In this document: in pieces, positions 6,001-58,907 of the stretch | Layout of the letters: the number at the start of each line of letters is the position of its first letter | Position numbering within the stretch: position 1 is the stretch's first letter | Source of the DNA: Mesostigma viride | Taxonomy: Eukaryota > Streptophyta > Mesostigmatophyceae > Mesostigmatales > Mesostigmataceae | DNA length: 64,000 nt | Assembly (NCBI GenBank): GCA_009746045.1 | Contig: RPFO01000065.1 | Location: forward strand, 9,325,128-9,389,127 | Direction of reading: 5' to 3' | Notes under the pieces: generated by a model | Seen by the model: only the letters and a program-made list of their open reading frames with translations | What the model was told of the DNA's origin: nothing | Database searches by the model: none | Translations under genes and position numbers: made by a program

Positions 6001-6378
6001 CTCGCCGCACCGCTCCCACAGCGGATCAGCACCATCCTTGTGCTTGCCCTGATGACTCTTTTCCCCGCCGCAACTGTTCTCTCGCCCCTTGCTCTTGCCC
6101 CGATGGCCCTCAGGATGAAAGCTCGCGGCTGCGCCATGTGAGTCACCATATGGATCCGATGCAGGAAATGCGGGATTCAGTACACGTCCCGGGCCATGCG
6201 GAAACGGACGTCCTGGGGGTAGAGGCAGGCCAGGCTCACCTTTGTGGCTGGGTGAAGTTGACGGCCAGAAGACCGGGTGAAGGGGTGACGGGCGTAAGTG
6301 CGTTAACGGGAAGGGCAGGTCTTGGGCTTCCTCGTCCACTGGGCATGACTGGCCTGACTGGCCTGATTGGCTCGTCAT
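1..6378 (-). CDS. TDP1: WWE-domain TDP1-like tyrosyl-DNA phosphodiesterase, giant single-frame ORF (C-terminus off window)
   Basis: I read this frame codon by codon from ATG at 6378 (in-frame TAA just upstream at 6384-6382) to base 1 and found no stop, giving 2126 codons. TDP1 is a phospholipase-D-superfamily enzyme that hydrolyses 3'-phosphotyrosyl links left by topoisomerase I, in the nucleus. Visible in order: an N-terminal Pro/Ser/Gly-rich region; a Glu tract (about residues 187-324); a WWE-like segment starting LLWEWRDERGRW (416-427), with a probable second half YFLLHQATGAESEVRVRR near 610-627; the TDP1 N-domain, YGINFGWLAGIF, near 898; HKD1 (His1137, Lys1139, Asn1157, context VFHPKLLV..SSANL); HKD2 (His1787, Lys1789, Asn1862, context CHSKVMV..SHNLSKAAWG); and the TDP1-like terminal segment DWDVPWSLER. 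All catalytic residues are present. Typical TDP1 proteins are about 600 residues, so over two thirds of this one is insertion or extension. Some low-complexity stretches could be in-frame introns; cDNA would settle that. The identification as TDP1 is firm; the WWE call is likely. Confidence 0.88.
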   Translation of the reverse strand, partial: MTSQSGQSGQSCPVDEEAQDLPFPLTHLRPSPLHPVFWPSTSPSHKGEPGLPLPPGRPFPHGPGRVLNPAFPASDPYGDSHGAAASFHPEGHRGKSKGRENSCGGEKSHQGKHKDGADPLWERCGEVQGVPIPRWTEHWGQDSATPLLERQGKEEEGSVVMRHVRQGMGQEDSTAPLWTRQREEERGGEEEEEEEEEEEEEEEEEEEEEEEEEEEEEEEEEEEEEEEEEEEEEEEEEEEEEKEEEEEEKEEEEEEEEEEEEEEEEEEEEEEKEEEEEEEEEEEEEEEEEEEEKEEEEKEEEEKEEGGKEEEEGEGEGEEGQEEEDIIPLSEWRGGEKGAAAAARSKRERTDDKEEDEGAKVLRRSERRRGGNVEDEEEGEEGHVLRSERQRREADWEEGLRAKLEGDEDEDEDALLWEWRDERGRWRVFNNSQQARIRASAPLDPWGLLGAAGGQAETSVVDLGRGQLLFRCQPHPFRSRELSAPLHASPRPVLLPQPALHQHGSQPGVPPPPRPPPTLVSSQQALPQQALPQQALPQQALPQQALPQQALPQHRLSQLPLFTQQLKLSSQQPGPQEPGRHPLSSPLQLSPHHPSPQPPLISPRATPGRYFLLHQATGAESEVRVRRVPAEERKRMAAEWAAREAEVSARVDAMRRVWFVGDRVYLNELAPRTPPLMSSPGTSLTSSSMPPPVSSSFSLLPPPPSSSRKPLGDAESRHACFGSGPDTIGSLRVDSGPDGRAGSKAGHCCRPYQGDTVTWDDLVPPALEAMWGSPSSLSFAKAAGWLTAPVEPVRALPLAACPCEQASSSRESPPCSSREGMSSGRPGGLEASGQHFHNPTPRCPPSLSPSARPVSLGAGGSPSLSSARPVGWPSVPSPSRKPVDRPTCWLRRALVASYGINFGWLAGIFAPDLPLTVLNEWDRDASHPGAQLGGEDDAMAVLYPNMMLVHPPFPREENRGYYNRHSNDDGDDDVEGGHEGRGMRYPYGGKRKRSASIMDNIDADGSQGAGDADKGHAGGGSTRGRLRGPDVGANLLGRTLDGSKVNGVIRDGGGVEDGRMRDDAFSNGAPGWGLGVKSGTEFAADAGSHSGAHSGTHSGAHSGAHSGAASGGRRCHSDGRSRSSSNNNSSVARGVFHPKLLVLEMEDRLRVVVSSANLGPGDLTGISQCVYAVDFPPLADASDGNPLGGCPPSAPDASCCQKVGACTPLVPDASCCQKVGSGSGTRLVPDARRGNEPAAQAVRGDGQFGADLLDFLAHCFGVPLVGVGDGAGDEGGYGGGYGVGPMVCQVGEDKMARPGVGPGGGVGRKTGVSVEAGAGAGAGAGAGAGAGAGAGAGAGAGAGAGAGAGAGAGAGAGAGAGAGAGAGAGAGAGAGAGLGVVRGGKAGAGAGARPGAGAGFGQGVAAGSGHDGASLGAYSSHSSGYPHSGYPPGDYPRNERDVASRQLSARQFQMWWEVFARYDMSAPAGVHLVASVPGRHGGSGGGDGGSSSLYGSGSGSDGDGGGGGGDGRGGGGGSIRGSRSGGWCVIDGGSDGDGRLHKYGHMRLRSLLRRHVARTSDIVCCQVSSVGALTRPFLRDFYDSVTACGDNKAGVGGGGDRSSAALHNAVGSARCCTAGADRGQWMVHSANTAGGGGVQFTARCDSASSGDSLTNAERGESAARSDRMRPAEGLSKKPEQVSIGKPAQATNSNGIPAQKSIEKPAWPAHEGPAQPLRGAPTPAINTVTPARPRLQLIWPTEDDVLSNPGLGGTYSVVLGRRNIPRLPRSLLHRLVIPDPARCHTLCHSKVMVGLSLGGSGGGADGPGGVGLRDAGSDGPVGVDVRGPEGAGPVGATPGERVVGLPPRRRAPGCCWVLAGSHNLSKAAWGSLVRDYSRGGGQGQPWQRGGRGGDGGGVAGGDGAMGRGWGRGGSGSTLVGGSAAGGRGKGGGAMALHILSYELSVLIVRPSEAGPTFSPSPPLALGRSRREAGPEVARDDMSTTGAYSHGDKFGGMDGDMDGGMDGDHVTCFWDRGDRPAGPTRGAVADVAVAALTTTADISAAPDAHGLCHDHRPTGDHRPAPIDHQPCKIMSLGHTGEVTTPVQSSEGGERNGGDWWPCRLPFLAPAPPYADWDVPWSLERAFDL
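2248..2431 (-). repeat. 6-bp minisatellite encoding a Gly-Ala tract
   Basis: About thirty tandem copies of CCCTGC lie inside the TDP1 frame. Read on the minus strand in frame they give an alternating Gly-Ala run between the two HKD motifs. The unit length is a multiple of three, so copy-number change keeps the frame. Confidence 0.95.
2702..2800 (-). repeat. Duplicated coding unit (PDASCCQKVG repeats) in TDP1-like gene
   Basis: Two near-identical in-frame copies of a unit encoding PDASCCQKVG, plus a third degenerate start (PDARRG), lie just after HKD1. The shared DNA core is the run CCCACTTTTTGGCAACAACT. It is a recent coding tandem duplication. Confidence 0.85.
3055..3120 (-). repeat. 12-bp tandem repeat encoding Ala/Thr-His-Ser-Gly units
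   Basis: Five tandem 12-bp units (core CAGAATGAG) encode repeated HSG[AT] just before HKD1 in the TDP1-like protein. They are in frame and do not disrupt the catalytic motif. Confidence 0.85.
4729..4814 (-). repeat. 15-bp minisatellite encoding ALPQQ units
   Basis: Six perfect tandem copies of a 15-bp unit (TAAGGCCTGTTGGGG on the plus strand) encode ALPQQ in the TDP1-like frame. They sit between the two halves of the proposed WWE domain. Confidence 0.95.
5407..5820 (-). repeat. Trinucleotide (GAG)n tract encoding poly-Glu
   Basis: About 138 codons, almost all GAG with rare GGG, AAG and GAA, encode an acidic tract in the TDP1-like protein. The other two minus frames read as poly-Arg and poly-Gly and are artefacts. 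The frame is fixed by the unique sequence on both sides. Confidence 0.95.
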
Positions 6379-6384
6379 TGCTTA

Positions 6385-23790: not shown

Positions 23791-23799
23791 GACACCCCG

Positions 23800-25980
23800 G
23801 TGTCACGGACGCGAGCTATATGTCATCCGGGCGCCCACTATGCACAAGACCGGTGACGTGCGCAAGGAATTTGTTTTCTGCACATTTTCGACAAAGGCTA
23901 GTGACCGGGGGGGGGACACTAGCGCTTGCAGCATAGGGGCAGGGGCAGGCGCGCCGGGCCAGGCACAGTCGGGCGCGCAGCATAAGAGCGGACGAAAGTG
24001 CATGTACGTGCGCGCGCGCCGGGCCAGGCACAGCTGGGCGCGCAGCACTGACTTGAGCGGACGGCAGCACAAGTGCGCAGCGTCGAGAGGATCATATACG
24101 CGAGTTAGTGGACAGCTGGAGCTGGAGCTGAAGCTGGAGCTGGACTGCTGGACTTCAACAGCGCCGAGGCTATTGACAGGCCAGGTGTCTTTGTGGTGTA
24201 GAATAGCGGGTCAACGTTATGAGGACTGGACAGAAAATGGAAAAGGACAATTTGCGGTGCGGAGCCAGATCGCTGGAATGAATGCGAAATCGCTGGCAGC
24301 CTTAAGTGAAAGGGATTTCTTCTAGAAAGGAAAGATTAGAAGCAATGTTTGCCGGGCCACTCACGCGCAAGGTGTACATAAGCGTGCAGATTGTTTGAAG
24401 GATATTATGCTTCGACCTTGGTGGTCGTGACTCAATGCCGGACATTCCCAGGGACAGAAATGCCGGAGCCTGCAGGAGATGAGATCGGCAACAGGGTAGC
24501 AATTTAGATTTGTCGGGATGCCTTCCTGCTTTTGTTGGCATGTGTGGTAGAAAGCCAGGACGGCAACTGGAATGCGGTTTCTGTTTGCATGGTTCAGGCA
24601 GCAAGATAGTTTTGGCATTCCTGGCTGGACTGACAAGTGTGGCGTGTGTCATGCGTGTGGCATGTGACGAATGGTTTGGTTCATAGTCGAAGAGGACTCT
24701 CACGTAGCGTGTAGTCTCTTCGAGTTTCTCGTTAGTGGCCTTCGTGTTTCTCCCTTTCCTTGGGAGCAAGGATGGTAGCATGTCATGGAGCGCTGCCTAA
24801 CTGCGGGCTCGTGACTGTGAGCATGGAGTGCATCGATATTGAGACTATCAACGTGTTGTAATTGTATTAACTTTCTCAATAAATTCCGCATTTGCGGCTT
24901 CATCATCAGACGATGCAAAGTGTGTGTTGTGAAAGCATTGTTCTATAGCAGGGGAGGCAAAAGCATCATCTTGCATCATCATCATTGTCGCATGCAAATA
25001 GATTAGTTGGAGCGTCTAGCTAACGCCCCAGCAAGGATAGTCAAACGCGGCACGCGACGGTACACAAGGGGATCAATAAGGTGCATGGTCATCAGGCACG
25101 AGGGACAGTTCCTTGTCCTCGGCTGAGGGCCTCCTTTCGTTACTCGAAGAGACTAACTCCATCTGCAAAGGATAGTGATAGCAATTGAGGAAAAGTTTTC
25201 AATGCAGCAAAGAGAGACGGTGTGCAGTTTTCTGGGGAAGACTATAGCACACATAGTGGCCTGATCAACCTGTCAGAGGTGAATTTCACCCTATGTGCCC
25301 AACTGCCTGTTTACATTTGTAGTGTCTGGCCATCATGTTGTAAACGGAGGTATTAGGGTTGCGTCCCTAACAATCGCACCCGCCTGCCGTCTTTCTGGCC
25401 AATAATTAAATAGGCTTGGTAGGGCCCGCCGTGAGCTTTCCGGCACAACTTATAGCAATGAATATAGTGCAGTATAGCAAAAGTTATGTAGTGCCGAAGT
25501 TGTAATTCCGGCACAATACTTTGCGTACCTTAGGTGCCGACGGGACTATCCTCGGCCGAATATTCCGTGTTGGATATTTCGTATGACTGAATCCAGTTCT
25601 AGATGCATTGTATGCCGTGTTATAGTTGCTTGACATCTGGCGTTCTCCTAATCGTCAATTGTATAATCGACAGCTGGCAACTTGTGCAGAATATTCTAGA
25701 ACGTGCACCGCTGCCCCAATGTGCCTTGATAAGGAAGTGACACACCTACGTTGCACTTACCTTGCAGTCCAAGCCCCGTGTGGCTATGGATGCTATGCCA
25801 GTCCCCACCCGGGAACCGCACCATGGCTTTGGCGGTGAAACGGTGGCAGTCCGTAACCTAAATATGCAATGAATAAACTGTCTATCAATTGTCTCAATCA
25901 GTCTTGACGACCAAGGAATTAAATGAAAATTTCTGACACAAAGCCTTAAGTCTTTCAGATTAGACCGTTGCAACTTAATA
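23800..25980. other. Region without a recognised gene
   Basis: Holds a direct duplication of about 30 bp (CGCGCCGGGCCAGGCACAG) near 23949 and 24016, a short GAGCTG run at 24117-24145, and otherwise nothing recognised. The left part of the following retroelement, including any 5' LTR, should lie near the right end, but no repeat of the 3' flank was found. Confidence 0.4.
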
Positions 25981-25987
25981 GTAGTGG

Positions 25988-28749
25988 TTGTGGCAGTTTA
26001 TGTCATATCACACTAGGTCGGACACAGCGTTTTTGGGAAGCCACGCCGGCTGTGCCAACACGGGCGTCGACACCGACGGGCAGGAGCTCTCCAGGGTCGA
26101 TACCAACATCAACACGTCAGGAACTGACCCCACAGCATCAGGCAGCAGTGGTGGGTCAGCGCCGGCAGCTACGGGCGGTCAAGCAACTGACCCGCCCAGC
26201 GGTCTTCTCGGCACTAGTGCGGACACCGCATTGTTAGGTAATGGAGCGCCTTCCCTTTCTTCGGCAGGGGACGGTGGTGCTCTTACCCAAGTGCTGCGCC
26301 TGCTCCAAGAGCAAGCGGCAGAGTTGGCGGCACTCCGAGCTCAGCAAGCGACGCAGTTATCGCAACAGGCGACGCTTGTTGAAGAAACTGTGCGACTTGC
26401 TTTGCCAAAGCGCGGAGCGCGCGGAATCTAGTAACGGCTGAAGCGAGGCGTGCTATAGGGAGCGCGCTGAGCAACGGCGGCAGGCGGAGGCAACCACGGA
26501 AGCTGCACGCACCTGCCAAGCTGCGGCCCAACGCGACACCGAGGCCAGGCAGGCTGCCGACGAGGAGGCCGCTGCCGAGGAAGCGCGGCGACATGAGGCG
26601 CTGCGCGATCGCCAACGCGGGCACTTCGACGAAGAGCGCAGCTAGTGCATGGGACAGGTCCGGTACGCAACGTTGAACCCAGTCAGCCACGCGCCGGACC
26701 AAACGGTCAACGGCGGGGCGCGACGGGGAAATGGCGCAGGATGACAAGCTGCAGCCGAACGTCGGTCGGATAGGCACCCGGTCGACTGCCGACGCATCTT
26801 ATACGCTGGGGGGGAACCTACGGGCACCCAACCAAGGCACGTTATCGTGGCGCGGCGGGTATGGTGCGGCCCCCAGGGGGGGAGCATCAGGTGGCTTGTT
26901 TAGCACAGGTCGGCCACCCATGACGGCGGCAGCAACGCCGTTGCATGGGTGGCACCGCAGGGCAGCCCATGCAGGCTTGGCAGCACTCGGTCAGACTTCG
27001 GCTGGGGCCAAGTCGATCGGGAGCGAGCCAGCATACCATGGAGTGAGGGCGACGACGTCCAGGGACCCCACCGCATGCTGTACGGCGTGCATGGCGAATC
27101 CACTCGTGTGCCATCGCTGCCCAAGGTGGAGCTTCGCGAGAAGTTCACCTCAGCAGGCACGGGTGCGACGTTAGAGGAAGCCTATTATGAGCTCTTCCGA
27201 GCTCATTGTAACACCTATCGTTACGCCTCGGGGTATCCTCTTCGCCATGAGATGGTGATGGATTTTATTCACCTCTTTTTCCATGATCTGACCAAGAAGA
27301 AGGTCCAGGTTTTGGTCCAGCATTACCGAGCGCTCGTGGACTGGTGTCATCGCACGGACATCTGGTTTGCGCTCACGGACATGGGCACACCGGATCTCGA
27401 CTCGATCATCTTCGATGTCGACCCGGCATAGCAGCTGTGGCAGCAACTGCGGCTAAAGTACCCAGTTGAGCACGTCAAGGCCATCGCGGAATGGAATGGA
27501 GCGTTCACCGTCGCCGAGGGTGAGGATCCGGCTTTCTCCCTTGACCGGCTCCTCGCGTTTGCGGGCAAAGTGCCTGATTATACGCAGACCAAGGCTTGCC
27601 GGTTATGGCGGAGTGCAGTGCCCCTGCTGGCCATCGATCTTCCGGAGCCGCCCGGTGCGGGGAGTGGACTTTGGTGACTCTCTGTGCGGCGTATTTCAAG
27701 CGGCTGCTCAGGAAGTGTGGGAAGGCGAGAAGGGTATCTCGTCTGAGCTGGCTGAGATGCGCAAGAAGATGGCTGAGATGGAGAAGGCCATCGCGGTCAA
27801 GGGTGGCCAGCGGCTGCCTGGTGCGGGGCGCGGCGAATATGTCGGCAGTCAGGGTGGTGGCAACGCCGGTCACGGGGGCAGCGGCGGTGGCGGTCAGGGT
27901 GGCAGCGGCGGTGTCAGTCGTGGTGGCGGCGGCAGTGGGTACGGTGCATGGTCGGGGCCGCGGTGGTGGTCGAGGCGGAGGCGGTCGTCCGCCGACATCG
28001 GATCATGGATGGGACTCAGGAGCTAGGCGCAGGGCGTGCAAGGTGCGCTGGGCGCACCCACCAGTGTGCACTACAAATCGGGCTGCTTCCTGTGCGGTCA
28101 GGATGGGCACATCAAACGCGATTGTCCCAAGGCGTGTAAGAAGTCACACCCAGCAACGGTCCGAACCCATCTGGCGGGGCAGTGCCCAGCGCCGGGGGTG
28201 CACTTTGCGGACGTGGAGGACAAGAAGGTGGACACGGGGGTGGTCATCATTCAGCCGACGGGCGAGGCGGGGGGGCGTGAAAGGGAGGATGGGCCGGGAT
28301 CGCAGGTTCAATACAGGGACGAGGACTTCTGGCGGCCAGCCGACGTGATGGCGTTGGACATCCACGCAGTTGGCGCGCGAGGGAAGCAAGCACGTGCACC
28401 ACCCTCGTTTCAGGTGGGGCAGCCAAGTGAGACTGTGGGGCAGTTGCCTCAGTCCTTTCGCATGGCTCCCGCTCGGACCGGCTCCACCCTGGAACACGAC
28501 AATCCTGCTGGGGCAGAGCAGCGGCGCAGGTTGTTGCCCTTATACCCTATGCCGTCGGTCGTGGACACGCCTGCATACACTCCCCGGCAAGTGGTCGAGT
28601 GGTTCGGTCAGCGGGCCGTGGAGGTGCTCGGGTCGCACGCGTCAGAGGTACAGCTGTACAGCGGTACGCTGACAGCATGGACGCCCGTAGGTTGCACAAC
28701 GCTGAGACAGCCACATTTGTTGGGCATCGCCCTGCATCGGCTTCGGTAG
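25988..28749 (+). pseudogene. gag-like region with coiled coil, capsid-like domain and zinc knuckle
   Basis: The first part (to 26431) is Ser/Gly/Ala-rich and ends in a heptad-like stretch (LLQEQAAELAALRAQQATQL). An Arg/Glu-rich coiled coil follows at 26440-26650 in another frame. The capsid-like part at 27120-27430 reads ATLEEAYYELFRAHCNTYRY and VQHYRALVDWCHRTDIW, interrupted by TAG at 27429 and continuing in frame. After a further frameshift comes a Gly-rich stretch and the CCHC knuckle CFLCGQDGHIKRDC (28084-28125), spacing CX2CX4HX4C, diagnostic of retroelement nucleocapsid. The region binds and packages element RNA in intact relatives. Confidence 0.75.
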
Positions 28750-28913
28750 TCGTTGGTCATGTCGCTCATGGTGTCTTGGACAACGCACAGCGGGCGTGCG
28801 TAGTGCCTATAGGGCACCCACTGTCACCTCATATCCGGATGGTGAGCCAGCAATGGCGTTTCAGGCACAGGGGCACGGGGAGCCCCTGAGCAACGTGGTC
28901 TACAGTAATGACC

Positions 28914-29260
28914 ATGATCGAATTGGTCGTGAAACTGGACAGCGGGGCCCAGCCACTCGTCATCAGTGCTCGGCTGGCCCAGTTGCTCAACCTAACCATG
29001 CAGGAAGAATGGCGGGTTGCGGGACAGTCATGTGTCCGTGGCGGGCTGGCAGGGCCCTGCCGCTGAACCCTTTGCCATGACTGCGGTCCAATTCCTCAAC
29101 CCGCTCAGGCCATCCGACATGGCCTGCATCCCTGTGAATGCCCTTTTCACCGAGCAGTCATCGTATGACGTGCTGCCAGGTCGGCATGGAGGTCATGTTT
29201 CCCATGCGGCTCGAGGTACGCATGTGGGAAGGCCGCGCGGTGTACATCGTTGACAGAGAC
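28914..29260 (+). pseudogene. Retroelement aspartic protease
   Basis: The frame from 28914 reads ELVVKLDSGAQPLVISARLA, with the catalytic DSG (28938-28946) replacing the common DTG. In shifted frames further on, NALFTEQSSYDVL is followed by a Leu/Gly-rich turn matching the D-[IV]-[IL]-LG flap region of gypsy proteases. It cleaves the gag-pol precursor in intact elements. At least two frame changes break it. Confidence 0.6.
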
Positions 29261-29634
29261 GGTGACGCCATGCGCCAAGCAAGCATCCCGGTGAGCTGCT
29301 ACAGCTCGGACACTGGGGCAGTGCGTGTCTCGACGGTCAACCGGGTCGAGGCTGGGTCGCGCGACGCGGTGGTGGAGGTCCGGATGGGGGAGGTCACGGC
29401 AGCTGGGGGGGCTGTGCGTGATAAGCATCGGCCGTGCATCCCAACAGCGCTGGTGGGACGGGCCTCATTGCAGAGCACGTGGGCGGCGCGACAGCAGCCG
29501 CAAGCGCGGCAGGCCCTTTTGCGTCAGCACGTCACCAACGCGGTGCGGCAGCAACAACTTCTCATCTCCCGCGGCAATCGCAGTCACAAGTGGCTGTCGC
29601 GACAACCGAAGGTAACTTCTGTGCCGATGTTGTG

Positions 29635-30650
29635 GCAGAGTCGCGGGTCTTGTCCGAAGGGGTTGTATTGCTAGAATTGTTTGCTGGGATGGGAGGGGGG
29701 CTGGCTGGCTTTCTCGCTGCAGGCGGTACGTGCCACACGTTGATCGCCGTAGAGCCGTCTCCTACCGCTCGGGCAGTGTATAGGCATCACTGTGCCCAGC
29801 TGTCTGCCCTGTATCCATCTCAGTTTCCTCCGTCTGCGTGGACAGATCCTTTGGGGAGTGCCCTCAGGATATCCGTGCTATTGGGGAGGTTCATGTGCGA
29901 GGCCTTTTGAGGCGGCACAAGAGGATAGACCTCGTCCTCGCGGGCTGGGAATGTCAAGGGTTGAGTCAGGCCGGCGTAGGACGCGGGCTTGCGGATCCTA
30001 GGAGCGGGTTGTTTTGGGATCTGCTTCGAGTCGTTGGACTCTTGCAGCAGCTGCAGGACCAGCCACTAGCGTATCTTTTTGAGAACGTGGTGGCCGACGA
30101 CAGCCCTCACGAGGTAGTGAGGAAGGACTGGGCCCAGATCGTGGACATCTTAGGGGCACCAGTCACGTGCGACAATGCAGGATTGGGCGGGCTCACCCAC
30201 AGGTACCGCGCATTCTGGACCAACCTTGCACTCACCACCACCATCCAGGCAGTGGTAGATGCGATCACACGACAGCACGACGGCATGCCCGCGGAGGTGG
30301 CGCTGCCACCACATTTGGTCACGCAGCGGGTAGACGTCGCCGATCGGCACCCTTACGCGCCCGTCAATCACGTAGGTAAGCCTATGTGCGCTCTTCCCAC
30401 CTTGGTTAGTTACCAGGGGTCATCGGCCTACAGGGACCGGGGCAAGGGTTTGGTATGGGACACCGGTACGGGTTTGTTGGTGCAGCCGCCCGCTGAGTTT
30501 CGGAGGTGAGCATGGGGTTCCATGTGGGGGCGTCCGCCGCTGAGGGGGTTTTAGAGGCCACTAGGTGGTCTCTCGTTGGGCAAGCCATGTCAGCCTTCCA
30601 GGTTGGGTATGTTCTGCGGGCCGCAATGCAAGTGCGCCAGGGTGGGGGAG
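29635..30650 (+). pseudogene. C5-cytosine DNA methyltransferase domain inside the retroelement, frameshifted
   Basis: Motif I is VVLLELFAGMGGGLAGFL (FAGMGGG at 29680-29700), the S-adenosylmethionine site. After a frame change near 29830, motif IV is LVLAGWECQGLSQAG with the catalytic Cys at 29952-29954, then DPRSGLFWDLLRV. Motif VI is YLFENVV (30075-30095). Motif VIII is NAGLGGLTHRYRAFWTNL (about 30175-30228). After another frame change near 30505 the C-terminal motif IX-X region reads MGFHVGASAAEGVLEATRW and SLVGQAMSAFQVGYVL. The motif order is normal, not permuted. Enzymes of this family transfer methyl groups to DNA cytosine. Position between protease and RT, on the same strand, indicates it is element-borne. 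Two frameshifts inactivate this copy. Confidence 0.8.
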
Positions 30651-30979
30651 ATATCCCCACACCGCCACCGCCTGTCAGTGCCCACGCGGCTGGTGTCCGG
30701 CCAACAGCGTCCGGCGGCACTGGGTCGCCATGGAGATCGCGGCTGCTTCAACTATGGAGCGTTATCCTCATGACGTCCTTGTTGTCCAGCACGGTGTTCG
30801 CTGGAGCGCCCACCCTGCAGCAATCGGTCGGTCGCGCAGTCCGTGCCATTCAGCAGGTGAGCGTCACACCCGGTGTAGCCGCATTTTCCCTTTTCCACGA
30901 TGCCGCTGTCCGGGGGCCTTGTCTCGACAGTAGGAGTGCCGCAGTCGCAGATCCTGCTGCCTCTCACATATGGGCCATA

Positions 30980-32400
30980 GGTGAGCACCTCACCGCCGCG
31001 CAACGCAAGGCTATGGAGCACTGGTTGCATTCTGCACGCTCAGTTTTCGCTTTCAGCAGTGAAGAACTAGGGTGCTACAACGGGGGCTGCATGGGGGTCC
31101 CACTAGATACGGATCAGCCCTTATTCAGGCGGCAGCATAGGCTGAGCTTGGCTGAGCTGGAATTCGTAGATGCTAACTGTCGAGAGCTAGAGGCAGCTGG
31201 GATCATCCGCGCTTCATCCTCCAGTTATGCAGCTGCCACGGTGGTTGCACCCAAGAAGGATACCATCACAGGCGAGTGGACAGGTAGGTATGCGCATGGC
31301 CACTGACCTGCGTCAGCTGAACGCGCACACTCCTGTTGATAGGTACCCCATGCCTCGGGTCGATGATGTTTTGGATAAAATATCTCCCCAGGTCAAGTAT
31401 GTGTCGTCGCTAGATTTGCGTAGCGGCTTCCATCAGATCAAGGTCGTAGAGGCAGATCAGCGCAAGCTGGCCTTTTGGGGTGGGACCCGTCTGTACGAGT
31501 GGGTTCGCATGCCATTCGGACATCGCAACGCTAGTGCGGTGTTCCAACGTGCCATGGACCAGGTGCTGGCAGGGTTGCCATTTGCAGCCTGCTACATAGA
31601 CGATGTCATTGTCTTTAGCGAGACGTTTGACCAGCACTTAGCTCACCTCGATCAGGTTCGGATCGCCCTAGATAAGGCCAACCTGCGGCTGCACCCTGAA
31701 AAGTGCAAGTTCGCCCAACAGACCATAGGGTTTCTTGGCCATCAGATTGTACCAGGTGGCCGGACCCCTGAGGCAGCCAAAGTGGAAGCCATCAGCAACG
31801 CCGCAGTGCCCATCGACATCTCGGGGGTGCGCGCGTATCTCGGGCTAGCTGGCTATTATCGAGGATATATTCAGAATTTCAGCACCAAAGTCAAACCCCT
31901 GACTGAGTTGTTGAAGAAGGGCAATGTCTGGGCGTGGGGTCCGGCTCAGCAGCGAGCCATCGATACCATCAAACAGGAACTGACTGCCGCTCCTATCCTA
32001 CGCGCCCCCGACTATGCTCTGCCCTTCATTCTTTACACCGATTGGTCCAAGGTAGGCCTAGGGGCTGTGCTAGCACAAAAGGACGATGCGGGGCGCGAGC
32101 ATGTTATCGCGTACGCTAGTCGGAGTAACAACTCTGCCGAGAGTCGGTACTCTTCCTACGAGGGGGAAGCGTTAGCCGTTGTGTGGGCCATCAAGCACTT
32201 CAGGCCATATCTCTTTGGGCGGGTGTTCACACTTGTCACTGATCACCAGCCCTTATTGTGGTTGATGACCAGCGACAAACTCACGGGTAAGCTGGCCCGG
32301 TGGGCAATGATCATTCAGGAGTACCACCTGACAATCGTCCATCGGCCAGGTGTGGATCACTCCAACGCGGACGTCCTGTCCAGGTATGCTCTACCAACCA
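30980..32400 (+). pseudogene. Ty3/gypsy reverse transcriptase and RNase H
   Basis: The first RT segment (to about 31280) includes FRRQHRLSLAELEFV and LEAAGIIRASSSSYAAATVV. A frame change in the short sequence GGTAGGTATG (about 31281) leads into RMATDLRQLNAHTPVDRYPM, SLDLRSGFHQIKV, WVRMPFGHRNASAVFQRAMD and the catalytic ACYIDDVIVFS (31591-31620). Connection and RNase H follow: ILYTDWSKVGLGAVLAQ, YEGEALAVVWAIKHFRPYLF and FTLVTDHQPLLWL. Every catalytic Asp and Glu is present. From 31290 to 33158 one frame is open, so this is the best preserved part of the element. Confidence 0.9.
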
Positions 32401-32879
32401 CTGTTGACAACACTGGTGCGCGGGCCCTAGGGGCCGAGAGCTCGCCTGGGTCTGTGGTTTTTGTTAATGCTGCAGGCTTCGCTGACGCCGACGCCGAGGC
32501 AGACTGGCGCGCAGTCGAGTATACAGTCGCAGACTTTGCGGCAAGCTGCAATGCAGTTCACCCTTCTCCCTTCACCCCTGCCGCTGGCCTCCTCGCGTTG
32601 GAGGAAGGTAATTCTCCGTCCTTTGACATTGACAATACCTTGGCACGATACCTAGCACTCCAGGTGGTGTTGGTTGGCCATCTCACAGTGGAATGCAACA
32701 TGGGTGATGTGTGGCTCGATGGGCGTGTGTTGGAGCAGGTCCAAGGGATAGCTCTCACCCCAACCCCTGTTGATTGGTCCTCAGCCCAGCGTGACGCTGA
32801 GTTGAATAGGGTGCAACATAGGGCGGTCACCTACTCGTGGGATGCCGGGGTCCTCCACAAAATGATCGGCAAGCGCAAA

Positions 32880-33660
32880 GTGGTGGTGCCGCCGCCTCAC
32901 AAGCGGGTCGCCATCGTCCAGCAAGTCCATGAGCGGTATGGCCACCTGGGTGGTAACCGCACTTTGGCGCTAGTGCGCGCCTCTTATTGGTGGAACGGCA
33001 TGCGTGCCACAGTCGCGCAGGTCGTCGCTAGCTGCGCGCAGTGTGCCCGGGTGAAGGCCAGGTTCAATGTGGACCACGATGCGAAAGAATTGATGAGCCT
33101 ACCCAGTGATCAGAGGGCTCTTCTACCACTGGCACGTAGACCTGTGTGGGCCCTTTGATGAAAGTGCAGATGGCCACAAGTATGTCATGGTGTGTGTCAA
33201 AAGTTTTAGCAAGTGGGTTGAGCTCATCCCCATTGCTGACAAGCAGGCCGCCACAGCCGCCAAGCACTGCGCCGACATCATCGCCAGGTTTGGCGCCCCC
33301 GCGGAGGTGGTCACCGACATGCAGGGCGGGGAGTTTCGGGGGGAATTTCAGGAATTGTTGGATGCATGTCTCATTGATCACCGTCGCACTTCTCGGGAGC
33401 ATCCTCAGGCCAATGGTTTGGCTGCATGAGAGATTGGTGCAGACTGTCAAGCAGGCTTTGCGCAAGTGCATGGAGCCTGCAGTCAGCATCATTCACTATG
33501 TGGGATCGTGAACTGGCGTGGATTGCCATGGGTTACCGGATGTCACCCCGGGAGTCGCTCCCCTGTTTCTCCCCGTATTTCCTGTCAGTGTTTGGGCGCG
33601 CACCCTTGCTCCCCACGGAGGCGCAGAATGCACACCCCACCCCTATGCATGGTGTTTGAC
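32880..33660 (+). pseudogene. Retroelement integrase, frameshifted
   Basis: The HHCC zinc region reads HERYGHLGGNRTLALVRASY and SCAQCARVKA. The core follows in a new frame: YHWHVDLCGPF (first Asp) and VVTDMQGGEF (second Asp), then EHPQANGL. The expected Glu (HERLVQTVKQAL) lies in a third frame. Integrase joins the cDNA to host DNA. No chromodomain was recognised before the coding region ends near 33660. Confidence 0.85.
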
Positions 33661-34258
33661 AACGCCAGTCAGTTTCTGCTGAGGTGACCGCACGGGCGGC
33701 TACTTTCTGCAAGGTTATGCCCATCGCCATGAACAACTTGTTTCATCGCCCAGTGGGGGATTCATAAGTGTTTGCTCAATTTCATAAATTTTACTCGATT
33801 TTTCCAAATGGGATTGAATCCTTATATTTGTCAATAAAGCAGGGGTCATCCAGCCTTCAGACCATGAAATTAGACCACCCACAAAAATTGGGCTCATTCT
33901 GAGCTCAAATGGTGACATGTGACAGCATAAATATGCAGTTTTTCGTGGTTCTCTGAACATAATAGTTTCTTTATAGTGAGATGGAAGGGTAGCCGCTATA
34001 GCTAGGTTATTGGGTTCACGTGACATACCTTTTGAGGCCGGTGCGGCCCAGATCCGGATCAGTCGTGGCCAAAACTTTGGCCAGTTTTTTTTTGCCAGGT
34101 GGCAGGAGCTACGTTGAGATATAAACCTGCCACTGTCTAGGTTTCTTGGCTAATTAATGGTGTAGTTATTAACTAGATCTAGATTCCTTCTCTCACGCAA
34201 TATGTGACCTAATAGCCCCGGCAGCCTTACGTAAGCTGCCGGCAATTAGAACGCCACA
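33661..34258. other. Spacer between two retroelements
   Basis: AT-richer than its surroundings, with AATAAAGC at 33834. It may contain the 3' LTR of the preceding element, but no matching copy was found upstream. Confidence 0.4.
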
Positions 34259-34469
34259 TTGCGTCATTTGTTCAGACGCAAAATTTGCGTGGCGAAAAAA
34301 TGCCGTCCGGGCCAAGGCCGCATGACACGCAAAAAAGGACAAAAACAAACCCACCTAGCTAAGGTCGGCCTCTTTTCTTTTCACGAGGGCGGCGACAGCA
34401 AGCCAGGGGAAACGAACCTCTGGTTTGACGAACCTGTACTGTCGGAGCCATTTTTGGCCCTGAGCAGCA

Positions 34470-35350
34470 ATGCCGAAGGGGCGCAAAGCTACAGCAGGGC
34501 AGGCAGCGCGCGGGGAGGACGGGACGCCCACACCGCGGGCTGCTGCCGCCAGTCACGCGCCAGTCGCGCCAAAAAAAAGCAGCTCGCCACTCTGCTCGCC
34601 AAGTGCATCAGCCCCGCAAAGGCGGTGGGGGCAGTCGAGCAGGTCTTCGGTGCCGAGGACTGGGTGACGGACGCCAGCTCGTGGAGCTCGAGCCAGCTGA
34701 AGTCTGTCGTGCAGTTGCTGGCCGATCACGTTGATGTTGGCGACGTGTTGGACGCACGTGACCCAATCGGAACGTTGGTGGCAAAACTGCTGGCCGTGGC
34801 AGATCTCGCGGCGGACGAGGAGGAGGATCAGGCGCTGCCACCAACGACACCTGCGCAACGAAAAATGGCCAAGCCGAAAGGCGCGGCCAAGGTTTCGGCA
34901 GGTGGGGGGGCTGTCGGAAAGGAAATGAGGGCGATCGAGGTTGGCGACATTCGTTGGGGCACCTCCGGAAACCGAAAATCACGACGACGAGGAGGACGAG
35001 GAGGGGGAGGTCGCAGCCGAAAAATTCATGCAAGGTTTGAAGGCAGCGCTGGGAGGAAGGGAGGGGGCGGGAAGCCACTTCAAGGCCTCAAAAGGGGTGG
35101 CGCTGCCAATTAAACCGAGCCAAGAGCGTGAAATATCGGATTTCGGAGCGGGTGCTGCCGGGGGCCGGTGTTGGAGGACGCCAGCGACAATGGGATGGGA
35201 ATCCGGTCGTGGGTCATGACGGTCAAGCCTGGAAATTGGCGGAACATGGAGAACAGGAAAATTGTCATGAACATTGCATTGGCCATGGACACCCTTCTCA
35301 AGGAGCTGGGCTCAGCAGCCGGGGAGCTTGTGGGCATGGAGTATACCTAA
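34470..35350 (+). pseudogene. gag-like region of the second retroelement
   Basis: Lys/Ala-rich start (KKKQLATLLAKCISPAKAVG), an acidic hinge, a basic RRRGGRGGGGRSRK patch, and in a shifted frame SWVMTVKPGNWRNMENRKIV and NIALAMDTLLKELGSAAGEL. No zinc knuckle is seen. Assignment rests on position before RT. Confidence 0.4.
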
Positions 35351-35899
35351 TGAGGGTGGTGGCGGCCTTGCTGCAGGTGGAGGGGCAATTAGGAGGGGGG
35401 GGGTGGAAGGTGGCCAGCCACCTCCTGCCATTGGGGGAGGAGGCTGCACTGTCAGCCACCCCGGCTGTCAAGGCAGCTCTTCAAACTGCGATCCTCTTGG
35501 ACAAGCTCAGCAAGGCTCAACAAGTAGGGAAATAGAATCCCAGCGGGACCGCTCCCTTTTCCCGCTGCCATACCCACTTAGGCCAGCGTACACCGCGTGG
35601 GGCAGGGTGAGATCGGCACGCCGGCGACAGCGTCCCACGCGCCGCCACCGCGAGTACACTGTCACTGCAATGCAAGGTAGTGCGGCTGTGGGTGGGGGGG
35701 CAAGACCCGCCTCCTAACCCTAGAGGGGCGTGCTCTAAGGGGAGGGAGGAGGCCGGGCCTTGCAAGGGTCAAGAGGCACTGCACCTGGCACAGTCGCCGC
35801 GTAGGGGGCGTTGCGACAGGCCATGCAGGAGCAAGAAGGTGCTGATCAATGCAATATATGGGAAGCAGAATAAGTATGAACAACTGCGCGCGGACGCGG

Positions 35900-36990
35900 T
35901 GAGTTTACCAAAGGCGGAGGTGGCGGGGAAGGCACGGCTGCTCGACTACCTGTTGGCTATGCGGCCGAGCTGGCGGGAGATATCTGCCATGCAGCGAAGA
36001 GAACTGCATCAAGCCAGCGGTCGTGGCGAGCGCAAAGTATTGGAATGTGCCCAAGCCCAGCCGGGGATGCTCCATGGATGAATGGGGCAAGCTCATGAGC
36101 CGGGCAGCGGGCGTGCGGGCATATGGTGGCGTTCCGGCCGGAGAGGCGGCCCAAGTGGGTGGATGGCTGCTTTGGAGTGGCCAATTAAGGGGGTGGGTGA
36201 GCTACGGTTCATCGTCAACAGGAAGCTGGGCAACCTGCTGTGGGTGGACCCGGCCCCCAAGATCCTGCTACCCCACCTGGGCATCCTCGTGGAGGTCTAC
36301 ATCAAGGGCTGGTGCTACTGCGCCAAGAGCGACCTCGTGTCATAATACTACTCCATCGAGGTGCCCGAGTGGTGGTGGGACTACCAAGGGCTTCCTAGTG
36401 TGTGGTCGACTAGCGTAGGTCTGGCAGGGCCGAGGCGGAGGGTGTGGCCCGTGCTCAAGGTGCTGGCCATGGGACATTCCCACGCGGTGGCACTGGGGGA
36501 GGCCATCCATGAGATGGTGCTCTACATGACCGGTGCCCTGGATCCGAGGCGCCAGGTCAATTACCTCTCAAGCGCAGGTGAGCTCACCTTGGTGCGCGAC
36601 GAGTGTGGCCAGCCACTGCGCTTGGCCATCGAGTACGAGGAGCGCGCCGAGGAGCTTCAGATTGACCTGGAAAACCCCCCTGCCCCCATATGCTGTCCAT
36701 CACCATTGATGCCCTTGGTGGCCAGCAACGGGCGGACCTGCGAGGCGGTGAACCAGCTCATCACGAGCGCTACTGAGGAAGGCTACCTCCCTAACAACCT
36801 TGTGCCGTCTAAGGAGAAGACTAAGATGGCGAGCCTGGAAGGGGACGAGCTAGAAGCCCTAGGGGTGGTGCACCGACGGAACGGCGTGCTGGAACCAACG
36901 GTCAAGCAGCTCAACCTTGTGATCGCCCACACGCAGGCTATACTCACTCGAGGCCGAGCTACGGCCGAGGGCCGGGCTGGCTGCCGTCTT
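35900..36990 (+). pseudogene. Reverse transcriptase of the second retroelement
   Basis: Segments in order: GELRFIVNRKLGNLLWVDPA, YCAKSDLVS with an in-frame TAA straight after (first catalytic Asp region, about 36320-36345), YSIEVPEWWWDYQGLP, VLAMGHSHAVALGEAIHE, and a degenerate YxDD region reading LSITIDALGG in another frame near 36695. The thumb segment LGVVHRRNGVLEPTVKQLNL and LTRGRATAEGRAG follows. The sequence order is that of RTs with MGFSHAV-type motif B. It is inactive. Confidence 0.6.
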
Positions 36991-37139
36991 GGGGCGGTGG
37001 TTGTGGCCGCAGCTGCTTGTCCATTTGGCAGCAATGTTTCAAATTCATCAGCCTGCAAGGGTGGGGGCAGCGATCCTGGGTGCTGTGGGCCGGGGTGCGG
37101 GAGGAGTTAGAGTGCGCCCTGGCCTGGGCTCCTATGCTA

Positions 37140-37760
37140 AGGGTTGACCGAAGCGCACCTTTGGCACGTGAGGTGGTTGCATCTGACGCGTCCACCTACG
37201 GGCAAGGTGTCGTGTACGCAACCATGGAGCCGGGCGATGTGACGAAGCTGGTGAGGGCACGAGAGGTGCGGGGGTACCCGACTTTGCTCATACCAAGCGA
37301 GGTGGCCTACGCTGGCCCTAGGCCACTGAGCACGCGGGCGCAACAAGCAATCACTAGCCAGCAATGGGGGGTTGGGGTCCGGAGTCGTTGGCGGGATCCG
37401 GGGATGCACATCAACGAGAAGGAGGTGCGGGCTGCAGTGAAGGGCGTGGAGAGGAAAGCGCGCAGCTTGGCAAACCGAGGCAAGCGGGTGGTGAGGTTGG
37501 TGGACTCCACTGCGGCGTTGCATGGGCTGCTTGGCTAAGGGGCGGTCCTCATCCCACAAGCTCAACAAGCAGTGCCGCCGCTTGTGCGCGCTGACCCTCG
37601 CCACTGGGAGTCGTTCCCAGTGGGTGTGGACGCCGAGTGCACTTCAACCAGCCGATGGCGTTTCTCGCGGCCAATCCATGGCGACTTTCTTGGAATGCTG
37701 GGTGCGCGACCTGACCGCGGAAGGCATCCATCCTAACCCAGGCCCCCCTGCACCTGTTAG
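37140..37760 (+). pseudogene. RNase H domain followed by an NPGP (2A-like) motif
   Basis: REVVASDASTYGQGVVYA gives the first catalytic Asp, HINEKEVRAAVKGVERKA the Glu, VVRLVDSTAALHGLL the second Asp, and SALQPADGVSR the final Asp. After one frameshift near 37535 the frame continues to CWVRDLTAEGIHPNPGPPAP (37698-37757), a match to the C-terminal NPG|P core of 2A peptides, but with His in place of the conserved Glu. The frame stops at 37807. Confidence 0.65.
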
Positions 37761-37809
37761 CTACCTTCCTGTTACGTCGCGTTACAATCTGTCACAGTTA
37801 CGGACGTAA

Positions 37810-38280
37810 ATTAGGTCCTTCGCCTCAGTCGTTCCTAGGTTTACGTGTAGCTTGTACCGGTGGACACTGTTGTCCCGGTACCGTGGTGCATTGGATGCAT
37901 TTGGCGTCGCGCCGCGTACTTTAGTAGTGGTCCTTATCCTTCGGGTAGAATGTAGTGGACCAGCGTGCATCTGTGCATCTGTAGGTGAGGGCCATGTCGG
38001 CCCGAGCATGCTGGACCGTTGCATGGTGATCATGTACATAATTGTGGGTTGCACATGCACTGCTTGCAGCCAGCGCTCACCACCGTGCCACCGGGCCAGT
38101 GGTTTTGCCCAGTTTGTGTCGCTGCCCGTTTCGCAACCAGTAGCGTCACCATTTCCTTAGCTGCTGTGGTGTTGGCACGGTCGCTGGCTATGTGAGGAGC
38201 CATGAGAGCCAGCGAAGGGGGGAATCATGGGACAGGTCCTCGCCCACCCCACAGGGCATGCAGTTAAGGCAGGCATGTCA
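37810..38280. other. Spacer, no gene seen
   Basis: No recognisable domain; borders the second retroelement on the left and a minus-strand LINE fragment on the right. Confidence 0.5.
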
Positions 38281-38287
38281 GCTCAGC

Positions 38288-40090
38288 TCATTTGGGTTTT
38301 ACCAAAGCTGAGTGGCCATGCAGCCGCCATGGCGGTGCCGGAGATTGTGGCACGCAGACGCGACACCGGTAGTTACCGGGGTCAGCAGCAGAGCCCTTCT
38401 TGTACAGCATGACGCGGATGGCCGTCTGCCACTCAGCAGGCGGAGGCTCGTCAGAGAGCAGGACACGGTTGCAGAATGCCAGCAGAAGATCCCTCACCGC
38501 CGGGTCAGGGGTCTTCAGCAGCTCAGCAGAAAGGTGGTCGGCACCGACCGCCGCATCGTACCGCAGGTGAGCAAGGGCGCCGTCCAATTCCTTCAAAGTG
38601 AAGGGGTGGACGACGTCGTTGGTGGCAAGGCAGCCCTCCTGCAATGGCGGGGACTTGGTAGTCCGCGGCCGAGGAGGGGGGCGCCGGCGGCGGCGGGGGT
38701 CCGGCAGCCCCGAGGCGGGCGGCCGTCTCGGGGTGAAGCGGCGGGGGGGGGGCGCGAGCCCCACCTGTCAAGGAAACATTGTGGGCCAACCAGCGGTCAA
38801 GGCTGACCGGCGCCGTGCCGTCCCCCGTGTGCTCCACCGGGGTGCGCTGCCGCCGGCCGCCGAGCCGGTCGAGGTGGTACCACATGTCCTTGCCCTCAGT
38901 GTTTGCGAGCTTGGCAGGCCTTGGCATCTGCGATGCACTGGGCCGCCTCTGCGTCCTGAGCGTGCTCGTTACTAGCTAGGCCTCCACGAGGGCGGCCTTG
39001 AGCACCGGTTTCTGCAGCGGGTCCCGCGGTTACGCTTGAGGCGGTGCCGGGCGGCCAAGACCGCGGGGTCCTGGCGATAGATCGAGCGGGCCGGGGCGGC
39101 GGCGGGGCATGACCGGCAGGTGCCGGGCCGCCAACAACGGGGCACGGGCCGCAAAGCCCGCAAAAATGGCGGCGTTGGGAGCACCCTTGTCCAGCTCGTC
39201 GACGTCCGCCCGGGCGTCCAGGGCCGACAGGTACGCCAGTCGGCACCGGTTCCGCGCGTGCTCGGCGTCCGTCCATGCAGTCCTCAGGATCTCCCCGGAC
39301 CGGGCGTAGGGCAGACCAGTCAGGGCGGGCCACTGGGGCGCGACGCTCGGGGACGTGGAACCGGAGCCGAATGGTCGCGCGCACCAACCGGTGGTCAGAG
39401 CACACCGTGGGCGTGTCAAACACTCGGGTGTCAGGAACCGAGGTGCACCTGGGCTGCCGTACCACCACGTAGTCCAGGCAGGCCTGACGGCCGTTAGGGC
39501 CACGAAAAGTGACCAAGTCCTGTGAGGGACGTTGGAAGTGGCAGTTGACAGCAACCATCCCGCTATCCCGCAAAAAGGCAGAAAAAAGGGAAGTGTTGTC
39601 GTTAGCAGCCATGTCAGCAGGCGCAAAGCGACTGCCAGCAGTGCCCACGGGGAGCGTGGCATTGGCGTCGAGCAGCATAACCAAAACGTGGCGCGGGCCG
39701 GGGTGGCCCCCTCAAGGCTATGCAAGTCCTCGAAGAACTTCTGGCGTTCCAACTCAGGTAGACCACTATGGGGTGCGTAGCCCACCCCCACCGTGAGGTG
39801 GTGTTTAGACCGCCCCTTGACGGAGGTAAAATGTGCTACCATAAGGCGTGGGGTTAGACACTTCAGCGTGCTGAGGCTGGCAACTGCCAGCGACGAACAC
39901 AAAAGACCAACACCACCTTGGCCTGGTGTACCACTACCAGCGAAGTAAAACCGCCAGCCACCCGCGCGATCAGTGCTCACCATGCCAAGTGGCACCTTGC
40001 GGCGATGCTCTTGCACGCCTAGAATAGACACACGATGGGCTATGCAAAAGGCGACGAGCTCCTCTACCCGGTAGCTATGATCGCCATCTG
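38288..40090 (-). pseudogene. LINE ORF2 fragment: APE-type endonuclease and start of RT
   Basis: The minus strand starts with EELVAFCIAH and VSILGVQEHRRKV (catalytic Glu), then VGVGYAPHSGLPELERQKFF, MLLDANATLPVG (after a frameshift near 39690), FRGPNGRQACLDYVVVRQP and TVCSDHRLVRATIRL (the terminal SDH). The segment between endonuclease and RT follows, then LKELDGALAHLRYDAAVGAD, FCNRVLLSDEPPPAEWQTAI and VMLYKKGSAADPGNYR. The coding region breaks off before the RT catalytic motifs. Apurinic/apyrimidinic-type endonuclease nicks target DNA for target-primed reverse transcription. This copy is truncated at its 3' side and frameshifted. Confidence 0.85.
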
Positions 40091-40099
40091 CTGACTGCT

Positions 40100-47294: not shown

Positions 47295-47537
47295 GGTGGC
47301 TGCCACGACGTGATGCAAAGGGAGGGGCAGGGGGACGATGGGGAAGGTAGTAGTGATGATGAGAATGATGTTGATGATATTCCTTGCCTTGCATGTGCGT
47401 CCCCGGATCGATGAAATTGACGGTGTCCCTTTCCTGCTGTGCAGCACATTCGGGTGCAAGGGAGGATTGCATGGGTGCTGCGCTGACCCCCCGTTGACTA
47501 AGGAGCCCAAGGGGGATTGGTTTTGCCCTGCCTGCAG
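47295..47537 (+). pseudogene. PHD-finger exon with a one-base frameshift
   Basis: Between an acceptor (TTTTAAG) and a donor (TGCAG|GTTGGG) lies an acidic lead (GDDGEGSSDDENDVDD) and a PHD zinc finger: IPCLACASPD, then after a +1 shift near 47410 DEIDGVPFLLCSTFGCKGG, LHGCCADPPLTKEPKGDWFC and PAC. The Cys4-His-Cys3 spacing fits a PHD finger, a reader of histone tails. The extra base could be a mutation or a sequence error. PHD fingers also occur in some transposons, so a host gene is not assured. Confidence 0.55.
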
Positions 47538-47621
47538 GTTGGGCAGGATGCTTACAAGGGCTGAAATAGTGACAATTTCTGGTTTAGCGGGCATTTTTGT
47601 TCTAATGCGCCAAACGCAATA

Positions 47622-58166: not shown

Positions 58167-58830
58167 CTATATGCTGCATTCAGTGCCAGTTGGCGAGGTG
58201 TGTGTGACCAAAGCATCTGGACTATGTGGAAAGCGGGTGTTGGCAGTTACCAAATCGCATGTCGTAAGCAAATCAGCAAAAAGTTCAGTGTTGGCATTGG
58301 AGACCGTACCGTTGGGGGCGTGCTGACATCTACCAGTACCCGGTGGTAGCCTGGCGTTGGCGTCCGGTAGCAGAGCGAGGTAGTTGCGACCAGGGGTGCC
58401 GTTTGCCAGGTTCTCGAGCGCAGCAAAGAAGTCCTTGCGATCTTGTTCAGGGTGGCCGGAGTGGGGTGCGTAACCGACGCCCACCGTCAGGGCGTAGGTC
58501 GAGTAGCCCTCCACCGAATGAAAAGTGGCCACGAGGAGGCGAGCGTTGACCAGGCAGGGTTCGCCCATGTGTCGTACGGCGAGCGCCGGGGAGCAGAGGA
58601 AACCGACGCCCCCGTTCCCGGTGCCGTCGCCGCCTCCGTAATAAAACCGCCAGCCGTCGATGTCGTCAGCAGCAAGGGCAGTCGGTCCGCGGGCCGATGC
58701 AATGCGCCTGTGTTCTTGGATTCCCAGGATGGCGACGTTATTGTCGATGCAGAAACCAATAAGACTGGAGACTCGATGGCATTGACAGTCGTCGCTGCGC
58801 AGGCATTGACAGCGGTCAGCGTCGGGCTGG
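58167..58830 (-). pseudogene. LINE ORF2 start: APE-type endonuclease, N-terminal half
   Basis: A single minus-strand frame reads SSLIGFCIDNNVAILGIQEH (catalytic Glu), DGWRFYYGGGDGTGNGGVGF, VGVGYAPHSGHPEQDRKDFF and YLALLPDANARLPPG. It stops at 58167 before the SDH motif, so it is 3'-truncated. It is homologous to the copy at 38288-40090. Together with the ORF1 upstream (59500-61053) it forms one LINE interrupted by the 255-bp element at 58908-59162. Confidence 0.8.
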
Positions 58831-58907
58831 AGCGTGCGGGGGTAGCTTGAAGGTGGCGATGACCAATGGCGCGCGTTGACAGAAAAGCGGGGTGCAGGCG
58901 GGGGCGG

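Follow-up and report, generated by a model that had tools for sequence, protein, structure and literature searches.

Retrotransposons that carry a DNA methyltransferase (MT) include KnitGypsy-Dnmt3 of Klebsormidium nitens, reported by de Mendoza et al. 2018 (PMC5890265). According to the sections of that paper dealing with MT activity, the Klebsormidium gypsy enzyme had no detectable activity in yeast, a result called inconclusive by its authors, and two SymbioDIRS MTs methylate CG in the same host (PMC5890265). For Mesostigma viride, the relevant part of a published bisulfite study gives CG as the main site of 5-methylcytosine (PMC6947507). Such elements raise the question of why a parasite carries the enzyme that hosts use to silence it. 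M. viride is a single-celled, early-branching green alga, and the question becomes testable there because bisulfite data have been published, copies with full-length frames are nearly identical and the MT falls into three subfamilies. The window considered here is a stretch of 64,000 nucleotides of M. viride (contig RPFO01000065.1), and it contains a decayed copy of a high-copy Ty3/gypsy-type element with a DNMT3-type MT between protease and reverse transcriptase.

A decayed methyltransferase-bearing gypsy element in the window

The element spans positions 23801–38365 and is bounded on both sides by a CCGG duplication (Table 1). When the flanks are joined across CCGG, they align through the joint to a LINE copy at 63270–63663 (70.8% over 400 columns), which places the element inside a LINE. 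All five MT motifs named in the sequence-only reading are present on the plus strand and in order, and the position claimed there, between the protease and the reverse transcriptase of one element, is confirmed by DSGAQ from 28938 and YIDD at 31593. The motifs, however, are distributed over three reading frames (1, 3 and 2), which implies at least two frame breaks within the MT; the sequence-only reading does not mention these breaks.

Pfam DNA_methylase matches the unaltered middle ORF at 29784–30509 (E 2.8e-8, 34 bits vs a cut-off of 22), and the piece with motif I alone gives a weak match (E 0.095). Searches against the PDB returned DNMT3 chains (best E 1.6e-5), and a Mesostigma gene model is 66% identical over 76% of the query. 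Taken together, these matches show that the domain is more than a chance resemblance. Since the pieces of the MT fall into three frames and pol changes frame many times, the window copy is a pseudogene and cannot act.

Table 1. Features of the window element (nucleotide positions) and of the pol frame of full-length copy L036 (residues)
Feature	Position	Strand	Remarks
Target site duplication CCGG, left copy	23797..23800	.	identical to 38366-38369
Terminal repeat A1 (start TGTCACGG)	23801..25145	+	89-91% identical to A repeats of L036, L025; right end approximate; ~24961-25066 without match to other copies
gag-like coding, second gag type	27027..27653	+	40% protein identity to L036 gag, E 1.6e-43
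CCHC zinc knuckle	28081..28131	+	PF00098 E 5e-6, ORF 28027-28749
Aspartic protease active-site motif DSGAQPLVIS	28938..29006	+	motif and alignment to L036 pol
Cytosine-5 MT domain, DNMT3-type by sequence	29650..30645	+	between protease and reverse transcriptase; broken over three frames; bounds approximate, right end estimated from frame
MT motif I, FAGMGGG	29680-29700	+	
MT motif IV, WECQG	29946-29960	+	
MT motif VI, FENVV	30078-30092	+	
MT motif VIII, THRYRAFW	30195-30218	+	
MT motif X-like, SLVGQAM	30569-30589	+	
Reverse transcriptase	31290..31748	+	PF00078 E 2.2e-27
RNase H	32010..32324	+	PF17917 E 1e-38
Integrase H2C2 zinc-binding domain	32889..33062	+	PF17921 E 1.6e-17
Integrase catalytic core (rve)	33124..33405	+	PF00665 E 4e-10; frame differs from reverse transcriptase
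Foreign sequence, piece of another retroelement inside pol	33780..38039	+	gap in pol similarity
pol tail, end of PHD-finger region	38040..38189	+	60% identical to pol residues 2024-2073
Purine tract before repeat B	38214..38222	+	same place in L036
Terminal repeat B (end GACGCGACA)	38223..38365	+	92% identical to B1 stretch of L036
Target site duplication CCGG, right copy	38366..38369	.	
L036 pol CCHC	residues 32-48		match just below cut-off
L036 pol protease	residue 312		motif
L036 pol MT	residues 544-874		
L036 pol reverse transcriptase	residues 1079-1243		
L036 pol RNase H	residues 1306-1435		
L036 pol H2C2	residues 1625-1681		
L036 pol rve	residues 1702-1794		
L036 pol PHD	residues 2005-2049		

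Pfam protease models gave no match at the protease of the window, which was identified from its motif and from an alignment with the L036 pol. Similarity to pol ends at 33779 (pol residue 1914) and restarts at 38040 (residue 2024). By eye, the ORFs in the foreign sequence between these points resemble the end of a Symbiodinium DIRS Pol (GRSSS..LN..CRRL, PSALQPADGVSRG) and stop close to an EGIHPNPGPP motif of 2A-like character; Pfam gave no match on the two longest of them. The window copy lacks the A2–B2 end. Plain LTRs were not found within the window, and the repeats were recognised only from other copies. The observed/expected CpG ratio is 0.83 in the element and 0.80 in its surroundings, without clear contrast.

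Elsewhere in the window, LINE pieces lie on the minus strand at 38896–40097, 58167–59000 and 62091–64000, with a reverse transcriptase match at 62091–63233 and, by eye only, an endonuclease-like character in the first two. A 2,127-residue frame on the minus strand (1–6381), open at the window edge, holds very long low-complexity runs and a tyrosyl-DNA phosphodiesterase match (E 6e-20). A weak match (33%) to the PHD region of the subfamily B pol is found on the plus strand at 47404–47610, outside the element. A dinoflagellate spliced-leader string had no match in the window, which speaks only weakly against a dinoflagellate source, 0.39 matches being expected by chance.

Copies, subfamilies and repeats in the Mesostigma genome

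The genome of M. viride (439.9 Mb, 2,243 contigs) was searched for other copies of the MT, as the sequence-only reading had suggested, and a high-copy family emerged. Of 518 candidates 150 were scored, and every one of these matches the window MT; the counts are lower bounds, and the scoring favours good copies. Subfamily A comprises 27 of these places (92–100% identity to the window MT) and subfamily B the other 123 (77%). A stop inside the match occurs in 3 of the 150, and 39 lie in a frame of exactly 2,074 residues. In addition, protein P0001, labelled Mesvir1 (presumably for Mesostigma viride), was matched in the genome over 278 of 278 residues at 100% identity, and a third subfamily, C, occupies at least 35 places at 96% identity or more to P0001 (139 of 496 candidates scored).

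Ten A loci, each taken from the scored matches of the window MT, were fetched at 10 kb; the MT reads unbroken in seven (L025–L031) and is broken in three (L032–L034). Five places (L018–L022; L021 and L034 are one and the same) have a frame break at MT residue 59/60 in common, and apart from it their MT is 100% identical to that of L026; copies with a broken MT have therefore multiplied, perhaps in trans. A break common to these copies and the window copy was considered and rejected, since that of the window lies at residue ~68. A search for copies of the element without the MT, the outcome that was to count against the sequence-only reading, found none: all six reverse transcriptase places that were fetched (L056, L057, L061–L064; picked from 68 scored matches among 4,486 candidates), which had given no MT match before, do carry the MT, most of them in broken frames. 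In five of nine comparisons, subfamily B copies are separated by only 0–3 transitions in 9.1–9.4 kb, which indicates that the element moved recently.

In L036, a subfamily B copy, a 615-residue gag frame overlaps the 2,074-residue pol frame, in which the order is PR-MT-RT-RH-IN-PHD (protease, MT, reverse transcriptase, RNase H, integrase, PHD finger). Pfam recovered the MT, reverse transcriptase, RNase H, H2C2-rve integrase and PHD finger in this one open frame. The PR-RT-RH-IN order with an rve integrase is that of Ty3/gypsy elements, the protease being recognised by motif only. Tyrosine recombinase was sought in the pol and gag of L036, and no phage-integrase match was obtained at E 0.01. 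Intact frames with the domain order of the window, which the sequence-only reading had proposed to look for, were thus recovered. Their repeats are not of the plain LTR-internal-LTR kind; they are split in the arrangement A-coding-B-A-B, as in DIRS elements.

The repeat series reads A1 (~1,140 bp), purine tract, B1 (143 bp), GC, A2, B2. A1 and A2 are 99.4–99.6% identical in four B copies (L036–L039) and 99.5% in L025, and over 143 bases B1 of L036 matches the B2 repeats of L036, L037, L038 and L039 without a difference. The element ends in TGT..ACA, the TG..CA ends and short duplications being those of an rve integrase; 4-bp target duplications were found in three of the four B copies examined (L036, L037, L039) and in the window copy, whereas the flanks of L038, which lies beside an N gap, did not match in this way. 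The start of A1 was not found in the five A copies examined for ends and target duplication. In L042 the B end is seen, with no A2 match within 3 kb after it, and in L035 the 3' A repeat continues into the start of a second tandem copy. The B1-GC-A2 joint reads ACAGCTGT; this sequence, together with the purine tract preceding B1, suggests that the reverse-transcribed unit is B-A, and integration would then start from a circle or tandem cut at the joint. L036 and L025 share 95.7% identity in the 5' repeat and gag region and 72% in pol, and the second gag type precedes an A pol in the window and, by eye, a B pol in L057; modules have therefore been exchanged. The sequence-only reading had proposed another retrotransposon with a captured DNA methyltransferase, and the copies, the DIRS-like split repeats, the target duplication, the empty site and the constant presence of the MT bear this out.

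Affinity of the methyltransferase and its relatives

In profile and sequence searches, DNMT3A/B/C ranked at the top, followed by DRM and bacterial enzymes. Against the PDB, profile A3 matched DNMT3A (E 4.9e-23), 4onj (7.4e-12), HhaI (4e-10) and DRM2 (3.2e-9); 4onj, named only "DNA methyltransferase", is presumably a DRM. The predicted fold of the database relative P0007 lies nearest to DNMT3A/B/C entries in all 50 matches listed (best E 4.6e-15, TM by target 0.77); the model was built from 18 sequences with a mean pLDDT of 73 and is poor at residues 272–294 and in the C-terminal tail. Motifs I, IV, VI, VIII and X are unpermuted, and the C-terminal end aligns with the motif X region of DNMT3. 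The permuted order of DRM enzymes is absent, motif I being N-terminal and motif X C-terminal. By sequence, motif order and the predicted fold of a relative, the MT of the Mesostigma element is assigned to the DNMT3 type. Subfamilies A, B and C all retain the motif IV Cys and ENV. Judged from coding-sequence divergence, the MT of the Mesostigma family is under purifying selection: dN is 0.20–0.32 between A, B and C, whose dS is 2.9 in one pair and saturated in the other two. Between A and B, the RT-RNase H stretch is more conserved (dN 0.09), and the MT-RT linker less so (0.32).

A profile search returned 48 proteins, of which the top 25 (E 8.2e-13 or lower) make up a single family that consists of two gene models of Mesostigma, P0003, one protein of Closterium sp. 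NIES-54 and 21 from presumed metagenomes. A search with the MT stretch of the subfamily B pol gave six long proteins, namely P0049, P0050, P0051 of Chlamydomonas and three Symbiodinium-type elements, the latter at E >1. The domain order of P0049 is RH-MT-IN-PHD, and in P0050 the MT precedes another type of reverse transcriptase. The Mesostigma pol shares a PHD finger with P0049 and P0051. The MT lies behind RNase H in P0049, P0051 and P0021, and behind the protease in Mesostigma, P0005, P0024 and, to judge by its similarity to P0024, P0011. When P0049 was searched against the Mesostigma genome (28 of 5,326 candidates scored), frames of the MT family came out best, at 39–41% identity over the reverse transcriptase or IN-PHD. 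P0003, filed under the dinoflagellate Prorocentrum lima, ends in 141 residues that recur unchanged in the subfamily B pol; it likely represents contamination of that data set, or alternatively a transfer.

A tree of 38 rows groups the 28 retroelement-family rows, all found with the sequence of the window as seed, in a single clade (100/98); the other ten rows are human DNMT3A, three of Symbiodinium type and six bacterial ones, algal host DNMT3s being absent. Within this clade, seven rows including P0049, P0051 and P0021 form a subclade (100/99). The retroelement rows, human DNMT3A and the three Symbiodinium-type rows are split from the six bacterial rows (100/99), these being the sole references. 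The best tree joins the retroelement rows to the Symbiodinium rows with weak support (64/28), and a single clade of retroelement rows and human DNMT3A was not rejected by the AU test (p 0.44). P0001, P0003, P0005, P0025 and 17 of the 23 weaker matches of the profile search were left out. The host row L059 stood in a quick tree and was dropped from the careful one; L060 gave no match to the family profile. In a viral collection, 16 loci match over short stretches and were taken for virus methylases; none of the four stretches examined codes for a relative.

These gypsy elements may belong to one old, PHD-bearing family of the green lineage, which would have taken up a DNMT3-type MT before the streptophyte/chlorophyte split or would itself have passed between the two groups; the MT would then have moved inside Pol (PR-MT-RT, RH-MT-IN) and outlived its catalytic residues in Chlamydomonas. 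This joint reading is possible but decidedly uncertain, and it is rather doubtful than probable. If true, the MT would have some function in retrotransposition beyond methylation, and the K. nitens element would represent one branch of the family rather than an independent capture.

A separate group of C5 methyltransferase ORFs, bacterial in type and unrelated to the element MT, was also observed in the genome, with 364 aa in 10 places and 313 aa in 17 (for example L065, G000:C1579:8866600-8871600, and L066, G000:C47:643000-647500). These ORFs adjoin related unnamed ORFs with DDLPEY near the start and are perhaps part of another mobile, possibly virus-like element.

Role of the methyltransferase and comparison with known elements

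The sequence-only reading had put forward mimicry of host silencing marks or self-targeted CG methylation as possible functions; the window copy, with MT and pol broken, could not perform either. In full-length copies, the shared frame suggests that the MT would be synthesised within Pol and co-packaged with the reverse transcriptase, RNase H and integrase. It could then methylate the element's own cDNA at CG sites, either ahead of integration or during it, and new copies would arrive with a CG mark that host maintenance enzymes may subsequently copy. Self-methylation of cDNA was put forward in the discussion of retroelement MTs by de Mendoza et al. (PMC5890265) and is adopted here as the most likely role, tentatively and at somewhat less than an even chance. 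In A copies, transitions occur at 0.0115 per CpG site vs 0.0038 elsewhere (~3-fold; 107 of 210 transitions), and in B copies at 0.0026 vs 0.0013 (~2-fold; 29 of 72), the comparisons within each set sharing one reference copy and not being independent. The sole control, a small set of six older repeat pairs in the window, gave 0.127 vs 0.092 (ratio ~1.4). This excess is what CG methylation of the copies would produce, but it does not single out the enzyme responsible. The multiplication of copies with a broken MT, the lack of detectable activity of the Klebsormidium enzyme in yeast and the retention in a Chlamydomonas relative of an MT without catalytic Cys and ENV all count against self-methylation.

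The last observation also underlies the main rival, in which the MT is a nucleic-acid-binding or structural part of Pol, acting in binding of cDNA or target DNA or in particle assembly, with methylation secondary. P0051 aligns along nearly the whole MT domain (134 bits with the family profile) despite the loss of the motif IV Cys and ENV, its reverse transcriptase and IN-PHD still resemble those of the Mesostigma pol, and the MT occupies two places in Pol among related gypsy elements. Yet all 18 database proteins in alignment A4 have this Cys and the Glu of ENV, which all three Mesostigma subfamilies also retain, and a purely structural role would not need these residues; a non-catalytic role is on balance unlikely. 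The Chlamydomonas relative with its dead enzyme offers a natural control for whether catalysis is the point at all.

The PHD finger shared by the Mesostigma pol, P0049 and P0051 could instead guide the MT in trans to host chromatin, where it would silence defences or mark insertion sites; animal DNMT3s also pair a PHD-like reader with an MT. However, the finger lies at the far end of a presumably cut polyprotein, is equally present beside the dead Chlamydomonas MT and has no known target, which leaves this idea with a slim chance. Methylation of RNA (genomic RNA or primer tRNA) rather than DNA is slimmer still. DNMT2 enzymes act on tRNA, but the sequence and predicted fold here are of DNMT3 type, and a tRNA methyltransferase chain is the weakest of 54 PDB matches of the MT profile. 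An RNA substrate was suggested for the SymbioLINE MT in the passage of PMC5890265 on that element. The brokenness of the window copy, taken alone, could point to a host methyltransferase gene that landed by chance in one gypsy copy, or to an assembly artefact. This explanation is already refuted by the counts (150 scored A and B places and a third subfamily); insertion of a host gene is ruled out by the copy number, the constant position beside flanking pol in the fetched copies and the single intronless frame of MT and reverse transcriptase, and the probability left to it is negligible. Methylation of the element's own cDNA at CG by a Pol-linked MT stays the preferred role.

Among known enzymes, animal DNMT3A/B share with the Mesostigma MT the motif order, the C-terminal motif X region and the fold predicted for P0007. 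They differ in that identity in the structural alignment is only ~20%, and the element MT has no PWWP or ADD and sits in a retroelement polyprotein. SymbioDIRS-Dnmt3 of Symbiodinium likewise has a Dnmt3-like MT fused to a retroelement Pol, as far as described in PMC5890265, but belongs to a DIRS element with a tyrosine recombinase. Three Symbiodinium-type proteins taken to be of this kind (P0052–P0054) score 48–55 bits with the family profile, compared with 81.5 for human DNMT3A and 42–60 for bacterial enzymes, and fall outside the 28-row clade. Chlamydomonas reinhardtii CHLRE_09g398141v5 (P0051) is a gypsy element with a PHD finger and a homologous MT-like domain, 43% identical to the L036 pol in reverse transcriptase and 42% in IN-PHD; unlike in Mesostigma, its MT lies between RNase H and integrase, and its catalytic residues are lost. 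Searches of titles and abstracts, with most subscription papers outside their reach, found no description of MT-bearing elements in Mesostigma or of a dead MT in a Chlamydomonas gypsy element.

The likeness to KnitGypsy-Dnmt3 is the closest in kind, the comparison being with its published description only, as neither the profile search nor the search with the subfamily B MT stretch gave a match named K. nitens. As portrayed in the sections on that element, both have the gypsy domain set, a Dnmt3-type unpermuted MT inside Pol and DIRS-like repeats, and both are intronless and multicopy, with purifying selection on the MT and a streptophyte alga as host (PMC5890265). The present element differs in its host, Mesostigma, and in its PHD finger, which the KnitGypsy passages of that paper do not mention (PMC5890265). 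The kind of element is thus already known from a related alga; new are its large numbers, its full-length copies and its apparent relatives elsewhere.
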